Part shown: piece after piece, positions 21,041 through 24,977 of the stretch
How the letters are laid out: every line of letters begins with the position of its first letter
Numbering within the stretch: the first letter of the stretch is position 1
DNA from: a virus
Reading direction: 5' to 3' (one strand)
IMG/VR virus record: IMGVR_UViG_3300018428_002637
Location: 1-24,977 of that record
DNA: 24,977 nt
Made by a program: the position numbers and the translations under genes
The notes under the pieces: model-generated
Seen by the model: the letters and a program-made list of their open reading frames with translations, nothing else
Told to the model about the DNA's origin: nothing
The model's database searches: none

Positions 21041-21432
21041 GATAACTTCACTCGGTCTCGCAAACTAGTGGAAGAAAAAGAGTGTTTCCTATTGGTGAAT
21101 ACAACAGGTATGTTTAATTCGTCACCAGTAAATCTTTTGTCCCTATAATCTTCACCGACAAACCGTACATCAATTTTTTTAGTGACAAGAATATCCATCA
21201 GGCATGTCTCACTTGAGTACGGAATAATTTCATCCACATACTTCAACCCGTCCAGTTGTATAAATCGTTCGTATACAGACTGCACCGGCGAGTTCTTACC
21301 TTTTCTGTCTAAGCTGGGGTCAATCTGCAAACCAACAATCAAGTAATCACATTTGCTTGATGCCTCTTCCAGCATCACAACATGTCCAGCGTGCAACAAA
21401 TCAAATGCACCACAAGTAAATCCAACTATCAT
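21037..21432 (-). CDS. Cytidylyltransferase-type nucleotidyltransferase
   Basis: The 131-aa protein is a minimal HxGH-class nucleotidyltransferase: TCGAFDLLHAGHVVMLEEA (5-23) contains the HAGH signature, VGLQIDPS the second strand, VGEDYRDK and FSSTSLRDR the C-terminal ISSTxLR-like motif. The length and motifs fit glycerol-3-phosphate or sugar-phosphate cytidylyltransferases (TagD/RfaE type) that make CDP-activated groups. The substrate is not determined by sequence. It directly precedes the glucosyltransferase-like gene with a 4-nt overlap, which suggests that it supplies an activated donor, though this is inference. Confidence 0.85.
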   Translation of the reverse strand: MIVGFTCGAFDLLHAGHVVMLEEASSKCDYLIVGLQIDPSLDRKGKNSPVQSVYERFIQLDGLKYVDEIIPYSSETCLMDILVTKKIDVRFVGEDYRDKRFTGDELNIPVVFTNRKHSFSSTSLRDRVKLS

Positions 21433-22541
21433 CGTATAATATCTATCTTATCAATCGTGTCACGGTTCCATACCTCCAACTCTTTTCTTATTCTACCATC
21501 AGAATGGAGGTTGTTGTATCTCTTGGTGGCCAGTTTCTTCCACCACTTAATAATTTCTGGCAGTTCAAATCTATCAAAGTTTTCTGCCTTTGTCAATGTG
21601 TCTGTTTTTCCAAGTAACACATCTTTCACGTTGGAGTATCCATACTCTGACATGTAAAACCGTTTGTTTGTTGTTACATCAGTGGATGATTTGATAGTGT
21701 CGGTAAATCTTTTGTACTCTTCGGCATCATGTTCCTTGAGAGATGCCTTAACAATCCCAACCATCTTGGTTTGATACTTTAGTTTGCGACTAGATGCACC
21801 CTTGTGAATCAAAGGTTCTCCGCCGTTTCTTTCCTCAAACCAATCTCTTAGGTGAAAGTATATATCTTCACCCATAGTCAACAAAAATGATGACATGGTG
21901 TCACCCTTGTATCTTAGATAAGGGCGCATACCATCATACATAGATGCACCCTTTATGTTGCCATAAAGAGATGTCGTCTCAAACAAACAAAACTCCGTGT
22001 CATACTTCTTGTTCAACATCCTGCGAACATCATGGGAACAACAGATTGCAGCCATGAGTTTACCCCCAAGATAGTTGAAACCAAAAGGTTGAACGGGCAC
22101 AATGTTGAACCCCATGATTGCACGTTGGTTGAAAATTCCCAGATCGGGAACACCGCCGAGGTAGTCGTTTCTGGGTTTTGAGTTGATGAGGGGGGAACCC
22201 ATCTTAATAAACCCAACGGCTTTATTGGTGTTTGTTTCTTTGACAATCAGTTTAAGAGTTTTACCTGGCGCCTCATCGGGGGAAAACGAAGCGGTCATCT
22301 CCAACATCTGATCAAAGATTTCATTGTTCATTTGAACAACTTCAAAGTCCAAGTCCTCAGGCGGTGTGTCCCATAACTGAAACATATCGTCTTCAACACT
22401 CATACCAAACAGGGGCGGAGGCAAAGCCTTCACCCGTTCAATTTTTCTTGCACGAAAGTAATCGTCTATCCTTCCAAACTTGGAAAAATAATCAATAATT
22501 AGCTTGCTCGCATACAGCGAGTCTTCTTTGGATAGAATCAT
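21429..22541 (-). CDS. DruA/DUF4338-like protein
   Basis: The 370-aa protein contains the order of segments I associate with DUF4338, the family of the Druantia anti-phage protein DruA: a VGFIKMGSPLIN strand (about 115-126) followed by a charged motif (KPRND), then QPFGFNYLGGKLMAA (about 153-167), HDVRRMLNKKY, and LFETTSLYG (about 185-194) with SMYDG. The N-terminal third (1-100) is variable, and the C-terminal third is helical and basic. Identification is by eye; a distant or coincidental match is possible. The molecular function of the family is unclear. It lies second in the operon with 4-nt overlaps on both sides. Confidence 0.52.
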   Translation of the reverse strand: MILSKEDSLYASKLIIDYFSKFGRIDDYFRARKIERVKALPPPLFGMSVEDDMFQLWDTPPEDLDFEVVQMNNEIFDQMLEMTASFSPDEAPGKTLKLIVKETNTNKAVGFIKMGSPLINSKPRNDYLGGVPDLGIFNQRAIMGFNIVPVQPFGFNYLGGKLMAAICCSHDVRRMLNKKYDTEFCLFETTSLYGNIKGASMYDGMRPYLRYKGDTMSSFLLTMGEDIYFHLRDWFEERNGGEPLIHKGASSRKLKYQTKMVGIVKASLKEHDAEEYKRFTDTIKSSTDVTTNKRFYMSEYGYSNVKDVLLGKTDTLTKAENFDRFELPEIIKWWKKLATKRYNNLHSDGRIRKELEVWNRDTIDKIDIIR

Positions 22542-23106: not shown

Positions 23107-23135
23107 ATTATACATATGTTGAGAGCAGATGTCAA
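23107..23135 (-). promoter_or_regulatory. Perfect sigma70 promoter for the 46/47 operon
   Basis: TTGACA (23135-23130), a 17-bp spacer and TATAAT (23112-23107) on the minus strand, identical to consensus in both boxes. The -35 overlaps the gp55 stop codon; the -10 is about 27 nt before the first ATG of the operon. Confidence 0.93.
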
Positions 23136-23722
23136 GAGTCTTTTAAAGCGTTAATTTTTTCTTTAGCTAAGTCCATTGCTTCCTTGTCATTGAAGTATTT
23201 TGGTCTGCGTTTCGGAACATTCTTAGATTGATCGGCAAATTTCTCGTTCATCTTATCAGACTCTTCAATTTGTTTCTTCATATATTCAAGAAATTCATTT
23301 GATCCACCGTCCTCTCCGAGTTCATCTAGAATACCATGCAAATCGAGACTCTGAATGTATCGATATTTTGTATCTAGTTGTTTCTTTTCTTTTTGAATAC
23401 GCCGAAGAAAAGCATAATAAGTGATCTGTGTAAAATACGCAAAGGGGTTCTTGGATTTTTCTGGGTCGAAGTTATGAATATATGTGATACAATTTTCAAT
23501 ACCATCAAGGATCATTTCTTCTCGGAAGGTGTAGTTTACAAAGTTAGATTTGTAAGCCAAGTGATTTGCAATCTTAACGAAACACTCACCGATGTAATTT
23601 GACACTCTCGGTTTAGGTTCGCCTTTCTTTTCGGCTTCATTTACTTGTTCTCTGTATTCTATCATTGCCGCCAAAAACTCTTTGTTGTTGACGTAATGTC
23701 TGTTCTCAGTTTTTTTGCTCAT
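23132..23722 (-). CDS. 55: Late transcription sigma factor gp55
   Basis: Sigma-family protein that directs host RNA polymerase to late TATAAATA promoters, in T4 with gp33 and the gp45 clamp. The 196-aa protein (185 in T4) has the sigma region 2-like core FREEMILDGIENCITYIHNFD (about 66-86) and KNPFAYFTQITYYAFLRRIQKEKK (about 96-119), with a charged C-terminal region. AAAGGA lies 8 nt before the ATG. A near-perfect host promoter is about 31 nt upstream, consistent with early expression before late genes are switched on. Confidence 0.94.
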   Translation of the reverse strand: MSKKTENRHYVNNKEFLAAMIEYREQVNEAEKKGEPKPRVSNYIGECFVKIANHLAYKSNFVNYTFREEMILDGIENCITYIHNFDPEKSKNPFAYFTQITYYAFLRRIQKEKKQLDTKYRYIQSLDLHGILDELGEDGGSNEFLEYMKKQIEESDKMNEKFADQSKNVPKRRPKYFNDKEAMDLAKEKINALKDS

Positions 23723-23798: not shown

Positions 23799-23827
23799 TT
23801 GACAGGTGCTCAAAAAATCATTATAAT
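23799..23827 (+). promoter_or_regulatory. Perfect sigma70 promoter on the plus strand, antisense
   Basis: TTGACA (23799-23804), a 17-bp spacer and TATAAT (23822-23827) match the consensus exactly. All genes here are on the minus strand, and no plus-strand gene starts downstream, so transcription from it would run antisense through the 134-aa gene and uvsW. The expected start is near 23834. Confidence 0.85.
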
Positions 23828-23838
23828 TAGGATGTGCC

Positions 23839-23861
23839 ATTAAGGGATATTAAGCCTTAAT
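23839..23861. other. Dyad/hairpin at the antisense transcription start
   Basis: A 7-bp inverted repeat (attaagg at 23839-23845, ccttaat at 23855-23861, 9-nt loop) covers the stop codon of the 134-aa gene and lies about 5-27 nt after the predicted start of the plus-strand promoter. It could be an RNA hairpin or an operator. No tight U tract follows on either strand. Confidence 0.5.
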
Positions 23862-24261
23862 GAATTTGATCATTTCCTTTATCTTTTAAAGAATTCATAA
23901 ATTCTTCTATGGACAAACCGTCTTCAAATTCTGGTTCAAAGTCGTCCATGGCGTCCATAAAATCCAACCCTTCTTTTTTGTCTTCCATATACCCCTCGGT
24001 CATCTTGTAGAATCCCTCTTCATAATGCTGACTGAGCGGCGAAATAGAAATAATTTTATCTTGTTTAATAGAATAAAATTCGGAGTCGGTGAAAGCAATC
24101 CAAGGGCGCAAAGACAAAGCTTCATGTGTGGAGTTAATTTTTACTCTAGTAACTTCTAGAGGTATGGTTGTTTCTAGATGTGTTTCTGATTCAGATACAA
24201 TACCAGCAATAAGCTGCATGCCGTTATCTAAACAAATAATACTAGGTTTGCATTTTACCAT
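23857..24261 (-). CDS. Sm-like small protein downstream of uvsW
   Basis: A 134-aa protein with a beta-rich N-terminal part (about 5-72: LDNGMQLIAGIVSESET, TTIPLEVTRV, then LRPWIAFTDSEFYSIKQDKIISI), which has the strand order of Sm/Hfq-like barrels, and an acidic C-terminal tail with EEFMNSL. The acidic tail could dock on a partner. The layout resembles the 128-aa protein at 4703-5089. AAGGAT precedes the ATG at 24261, which overlaps uvsW by 20 nt. The fold assignment is by eye; function unknown. Confidence 0.72.
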   Translation of the reverse strand: MVKCKPSIICLDNGMQLIAGIVSESETHLETTIPLEVTRVKINSTHEALSLRPWIAFTDSEFYSIKQDKIISISPLSQHYEEGFYKMTEGYMEDKKEGLDFMDAMDDFEPEFEDGLSIEEFMNSLKDKGNDQIH

Positions 24262-24977
24262 TAGAGTCTATCCTTATAACTTTGTATTCAAAATTTTCTT
24301 CATTGTATAATTTAATTCTTTCAAGGACATGATTTAAAGTATAGTTCTTTTTTGACTTCCATGATAAATCATCACCAACATCAAACAAGTTACAACTTGA
24401 CTTGTCGTTCCCCTTTCTCAACCCCCTACCAATAGACTGCAAGTTTCTAATCCTGCTTTTACTTGGAGAGGCAAACACTACATTGTGTAGGTTTCTAATA
24501 TTTATACCAGTAGAAAATGTACCATATGAGGCTACAATTATAGTGTCTTTTGATTGTTCCGTCAACTCACGAATCTTCTCCCTTTGTTCCGTCTCAGTGC
24601 CTCCGAAAACAAAGTACACCGATTTATCAGTCATTCCTTTTATCATCTTGTATAAGACATCGCCGTGTTTCTCTACATACTGATATAAAACCAACGTATT
24701 GCCCTTCTGAGAGGTCGCCAGCTTCGCCAGGATGTCATTGCGTTCTGGGTTAGATACTAGGAAGTCCATTTCCTCTTGATAAGACATTTTGGATACAAGT
24801 TTTCTTTGTTCATCTGGGTATCCAATTATCATACAGATGATTTTAAGTTCTGCTAGTTCCTTTTTGTCCATCAATTTTTTGGTTGAGGTCACCTTGAATA
24901 CTGGCCCAAACACACCCTCTAAGACAAGTTTGTGTGTCTTTGTGCCGTCTAGCGTACCAGTAGTACCTATTCGGAAA
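24242..24977 (-). CDS. uvsW: Helicase UvsW, C-terminal part
   Basis: Superfamily 2 DNA/RNA helicase that branch-migrates recombination intermediates and unwinds R-loops at origins, switching T4 from origin-dependent to recombination-dependent replication. The window shows 244 residues. It begins near the motif III region (RIGTTGTLDG) and LEGVFGPVFKV, and includes motif V ASYGTFSTGINIRNL and motif VI SIGRGLRKG. The N-terminal half with Walker A and DExx motifs lies outside. No frameshift is seen. A GTG at 24913 is an internal codon, not the start. Confidence 0.93.
   Translation of the reverse strand, partial: FRIGTTGTLDGTKTHKLVLEGVFGPVFKVTSTKKLMDKKELAELKIICMIIGYPDEQRKLVSKMSYQEEMDFLVSNPERNDILAKLATSQKGNTLVLYQYVEKHGDVLYKMIKGMTDKSVYFVFGGTETEQREKIRELTEQSKDTIIVASYGTFSTGINIRNLHNVVFASPSKSRIRNLQSIGRGLRKGNDKSSCNLFDVGDDLSWKSKKNYTLNHVLERIKLYNEENFEYKVIRIDSNGKMQT

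Follow-up and report, generated by a model that had tools for sequence, protein, structure and literature searches.

Genomic context of the antisense promoter

The window (the whole stretch of DNA analysed, 24,977 nucleotides of the virus record IMGVR_UViG_3300018428_002637 from IMG/VR) holds all of its large ORFs on the minus strand, and in its last part a perfect host-type promoter points the other way, into the genes that run towards it. A preliminary description had reported a plus-strand TTGACA-17-TATAAT site opposing the minus-strand coding, back to back with the gene 55 promoter and directed into a 134-aa gene and uvsW, and both the site and its arrangement were confirmed. The features of the locus are as follows.

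23799..23804, plus strand: -35 box TTGACA of the antisense promoter, an exact match
23822..23827, plus strand: -10 box TATAAT of the antisense promoter, an exact match, kept in relatives
23833..23836, plus strand: T(-1)G(+1)TG, with the predicted start at G23834
23834..24977, plus strand: candidate antisense RNA region
23838-23845 and 23855-23862, plus strand: 8-bp dyad CATTAAGG/CCTTAATG, which might form a hairpin close to where the antisense RNA begins
23781-23753, minus strand: gene 55 promoter TTGACA-17-TATACT, back to back with the antisense promoter
23132..23722, minus strand: gene 55, late sigma factor, 196 aa (phrog_234, E 2e-62)
Downstream of the 23107-23135 minus-strand promoter: 180-aa gene, DNA binding protein (phrog_624)
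23857..24261, minus strand: 134-aa Sm-like gene (phrog_471), for a putative RNA-binding protein, last in the putative late operon
24242..24977, minus strand: 3' part of uvsW, R-loop helicase, running off the window

The antisense promoter (23799-23827, plus strand) matched the consensus at 12/12 positions with a spacing of 17 nt, within the 16-18 nt of sigma70-type promoters. It carries no T4-type late box TATAAATA, and its -10 region, which reads TATAATTA, is not that of a late promoter. Perfect sigma70 matches occurred at a mean of 0.02 in the shuffled window, and the two real ones were equalled in 0 of 100 shuffles; the second (TTGACA-17-TATAAT, 23135-23107, minus strand) stands before the 180-aa gene. 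A 165-kb virus record (G001), identical to the window across the Sm-like protein and the gap, contained five perfect TTGACA-N16-18-TATAAT sites in total, with the antisense site as the sole one on its strand.

The nearest isolates of the window by DNA were Methylophilales phages of the Melnitz group (69% identity). The Pfam Sm_like family was sub-threshold for the window's 134-aa protein and reached E 1e-42 for its Syn9 homologue. Residues 35-91 of the Sm-like protein (23857-24261, minus strand) also gave a weak sequence match to DNMT3B in the PDB (chain 6r3e, E 2.8e-6). Elsewhere in the window, a 370-aa protein (21429-22541, minus strand) matched the Pfam family DruA (Druantia protein DruA) at E 5.5e-8, above the cut-off.

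A complete uvsW was present at L004:2506-4020, where the order upstream was major capsid protein, TATAAATA, 117-aa gene, tail tube protein, uvsY, uvsW and Sm-like gene. In a near-identical record, TATAAATA stands before the uvsY-uvsW-Sm-like operon. The gene order is most simply read as a late operon of uvsY, uvsW and the Sm-like gene, with gene 55 after its 3' end and the antisense promoter in the gap between them.

Conservation among related phages

Loci of related phages were gathered by gp55 similarity, with nine added through the 134-aa protein, and were collapsed at 90% gp55 identity into 84 clusters. Sites were scored against a simple sigma70 consensus by a best-site rule, and shuffles and the remainder of the same loci served as controls. 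In the 200 nt before gene 55, 61 of the 84 clusters had an antisense site scoring 11/12 or better; the clusters are related phages, so that the counts are not independent events. The shuffle control gave 12 such sites in 1680 (0.7%), and the same strand elsewhere in the loci gave 21 sites of at least 11/12 in 477 kb (0.009 per 200 nt). The promoter of gene 55 itself reached at least 11/12 in 50/84 clusters.

With a gap of at least 45 nt between the Sm-like gene and gene 55, scanned over its entire length, an antisense site of at least 10/12 was present in 73 of 76 clusters, and the three exceptions include two Melnitz-like phages in which TTGACA lies just 6 nt from TATATT. Six clusters in which the two genes abut, or nearly do, had no antisense site above 9/12. 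Nearly all relatives with room for the promoter keep it, and therefore a real early antisense RNA is very probably made. The cyanophages Syn9, P-SSM4 and S-RSM4 all carry the site; in RB69, Vibrio phage 6E35-1b and Pseudomonas phage Cygsa01, gene 55 is preceded by other genes and no such site was found before it. A tblastn search of a phage collection with the 134-aa protein produced no match.

Comparison with close relatives for loss of the boxes had been proposed in the preliminary description. Where the 134-aa protein was 66% identical, relatives retained both hexamers at 12/12 with the same 17-nt spacing, while the spacer itself was only 9/17 identical, and between clusters with 17-nt spacers the hexamers were 89% identical and the spacers 42%. 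Judged from these comparisons, the antisense promoter is almost certainly a genuine promoter. A chance match, earlier called unlikely, is now excluded because the site is conserved across many T4-like phages. A+T-rich gaps do yield some promoter-like sites, but the conservation, together with the anchoring and the initiator described below, makes a chance match or a decayed promoter without function extremely improbable and in practice refutes it.

Position relative to the neighbouring genes

Measured from the Sm-like stop codon, the predicted start is a median of 21 nt (IQR 20-26) further on; its median distance from gene 55 is 97 nt (IQR 79-107). Two loci have 637 and 409 nt between the Sm-like gene and gene 55 (L359 and L084, respectively) and still carry a 12/12 site beside the Sm-like gene, and the site likewise stays there in L126, in which a gene is inserted before gene 55. 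Eight clusters keep the antisense site with a gene 55 promoter scoring no more than 9/12, and L079, with no Sm-like gene or uvsW found upstream, showed no antisense site. Because the site stays close to the Sm-like stop and persists without the gene 55 promoter, its target seems to be the uvsW operon and not gene 55.

The -35 boxes of the antisense and gene 55 promoters overlap or cross in 36 of the 62 clusters with both, which leaves room for an effect on gene 55. The same overlap would suit a divergent or bidirectional partner of the gene 55 promoter, tuning gene 55 via polymerase competition or supercoiling. This role is improbable, however, as the antisense site is anchored to the Sm-like stop, is kept both without a gene 55 promoter and at a distance from gene 55, and bears an initiator that gene 55 promoters lack.

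The main rival is a boundary insulator, in which opposing transcription would keep polymerases of the late operon out of gene 55 and the antisense RNA itself would have no role. The position of the site at the junction of late operon and gene 55 fits such a function, as do its lack where the Sm-like gene and gene 55 abut and the similar antisense site that, in three loci, separates a tail-fibre gene from a small gene. However, sigma70 promoters should be weak during strong late transcription, and inserted DNA parts the site from gene 55 and leaves it beside the last gene of the operon, although this is compatible with both views. Insulation is fairly unlikely, and gene 55 tuning, mRNA protection, a replication origin and chance are less likely still.

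Initiator and further copies of the motif

The trinucleotide TG[T/C], 5-6 nt past the -10 box at the expected -1/+1, was found in 70 of 72 antisense sites compared with 1 of 62 gene 55 promoters, its background being about 1% of positions. A palindrome centred on +1 reached 5 Watson-Crick pairs in 11/72 sites against 1.3% of shuffles, a modest enrichment, and the asymmetry of G-T over A-C within it may reflect shared descent. An RNA hairpin was rejected as its explanation, since the enrichment is modest and the left arm falls before the expected start; because of that position, a role as operator or in the open complex is just as likely as a hairpin. The conserved feature downstream of the -10 box is accordingly the TG initiator within a weak palindrome on +1, and not the 8-bp dyad.

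All 11 long virus records examined contained TTGACA-N16-18-TANANT at the locus, and when the TGT initiator was required the antisense site was unique on the non-coding strand in 9 of the 11. The fuller motif TANANTAACNNTGTNNGGGTT occurs in two or three copies per genome in several cyanophages, one of them at the antisense site, and a pattern scan placed its matches mostly upstream of gp55. It was also found before a conserved 67-75-aa gene (Syn9 gp88, phrog_718; L377, about 965-1207; L371-L376) and, in two of those cyanophages, upstream of a CpeT-like gene. Such low copy numbers point to a small regulon.

The same extended motif was observed in L153, L169 and L181, in the gap that separates a tail-fibre-like gene, at its 3' end, from the gene of a 91-aa cysteine-rich protein; there too it is antisense to the fibre gene. 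In L098, L127 and L152 it also precedes an ORF starting MTVKLISVTPDAEK, which resembles thymidylate synthase ThyX.

It is conceivable, but unlikely, that these sites form a phage-specific promoter class whose +1 palindrome is read by a phage factor, and which would act as a timing device via early antisense transcription at late-to-early module junctions, with the RNA as a possible ligand of the Sm-like protein encoded opposite.

Region downstream of the predicted start

A 7-bp dyad had been described just past the start. A dyad does exist there, and it measures 8 bp; only 4-5 bp of it remain in the nearest relatives and it is gone beyond them. The first 35 nt of the RNA gave a predicted fold of -9 kcal/mol (z -2.4).

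Only tiny ORFs follow the start, as had been noted, and no conserved ORF was found downstream of it across clusters. A coding use was rejected: the longest ORF after the start had a median of 24.5 aa compared with 23 in the control, and the first-ATG peptides look unrelated. In phage Melnitz, a 31-aa ORF is annotated antisense over the gene 55 start (L365:1818-1913), and relatives show no conserved ORF.

Searches against Rfam, permissive settings included, returned no family match, and no intrinsic terminator was found in the window, nor a conserved one in relatives. Candidate terminators clustered near +600 were discarded, being explained by a conserved uvsW protein motif.

The downstream region also bears on a replication origin, at which an R-loop of the transcript would prime replication beside the gene of an R-loop-removing helicase. 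Origins of T4 use promoters, oriE apparently an early one (PMC3016281). However, in a weak test, GC downstream was 0.27-0.35 in 72 clusters, like the surroundings, with no A+T-rich unwinding element beyond the local average, and in another weak test no GC skew turn was seen at gene 55 in Syn9. An origin at this site is very improbable.

Proposed role in the timing of the late operon

Silencing of uvsW until late infection, or production of a small RNA, had been put forward for this promoter. The former is the role best supported by the sequence comparisons, given that the operon is late and that the site tracks its 3' end; of a defined small RNA there was no sign, with neither a terminator nor an Rfam match found. 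The specific reading, that an early sigma70 promoter about 20 nt past the 3' end of uvsY-uvsW-Sm-like delays the operon by antisense RNA or by opposing transcription, has in our judgement about an even chance of being correct.

Early in infection, unmodified host RNA polymerase would start at G23834, and the product would run antisense through the Sm-like gene, from its 3' end, and on into uvsW. Expression of the operon would be lowered by the antisense RNA or by opposing polymerases. Once gp55 takes over the polymerase, sigma70 promoters would fade and the brake would be released, so that UvsW and the Sm-like protein would appear late. The data above support the promoter itself, the class it belongs to, where it is anchored and that it is conserved, as well as the late promoter upstream of the operon and the absence of a conserved gene downstream of the antisense start; early firing, lowering of the operon by antisense RNA and release by gp55 are what we infer from them. 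A T4-like late promoter alone might be enough to keep the operon late. In T4, host polymerase is retuned by alt, modA, modB, motA and asiA, all of which the T4-like cyanophages lack (PMC2984593).

The antisense RNA could also act in the opposite sense, pairing with the operon mRNA, shielding it from RNase E and raising expression. Protective cis-antisense RNAs are known for cyanobacterial psbA (PMC10989914), and a co-induced protective pair has been suggested in phage infection (PMC2518516). Protection requires antisense RNA and mRNA simultaneously, however, and here a sigma70-type promoter is paired with a late operon, which makes this reading distinctly improbable.

The literature searched, mostly freely available papers, contained no description of the antisense promoter. 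With the brake on the late operon as the preferred reading, the promoter is a concrete candidate for gene timing by antisense transcription in an abundant viral group that includes Syn9 and other isolates. It is aimed at the operon of an R-loop helicase and an Sm-like protein, and it bears on gene timing in T4-like cyanophages.

Comparison with known systems

The OOP RNA of lambda is a short terminated RNA, whereas at the present locus no terminator was found and the target operon is late. What the two share is a host-type promoter, constitutive and antisense, that sits immediately after the 3' end of the target. According to Krinke and Wulff, as cited in PMC5869508, OOP reduces cII expression in an RNase III-dependent manner. 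The lambda promoter pAQ, antisense to Q, holds back a late function (PMC5869508), as the present one would, but pAQ is activated by CII, whereas the promoter here is near consensus and needs no known activator.

In T4, UvsW unwinds origin R-loops and is expressed solely from a late promoter (PMC3016281). The confinement of uvsW to late infection is shared with T4 (PMC3016281), which relies on the late promoter alone, whereas an antisense promoter is present here; RB69, of the T4 type, has no antisense promoter before gene 55. CfrI of cyanophage S-PM2 is antisense to psbA and to a homing endonuclease gene and is co-expressed with both, unlike the present site, which lies opposite the Sm-like gene and uvsW; common to both is an antisense RNA, here a predicted one, in a T4-like cyanophage (PMC2984593).
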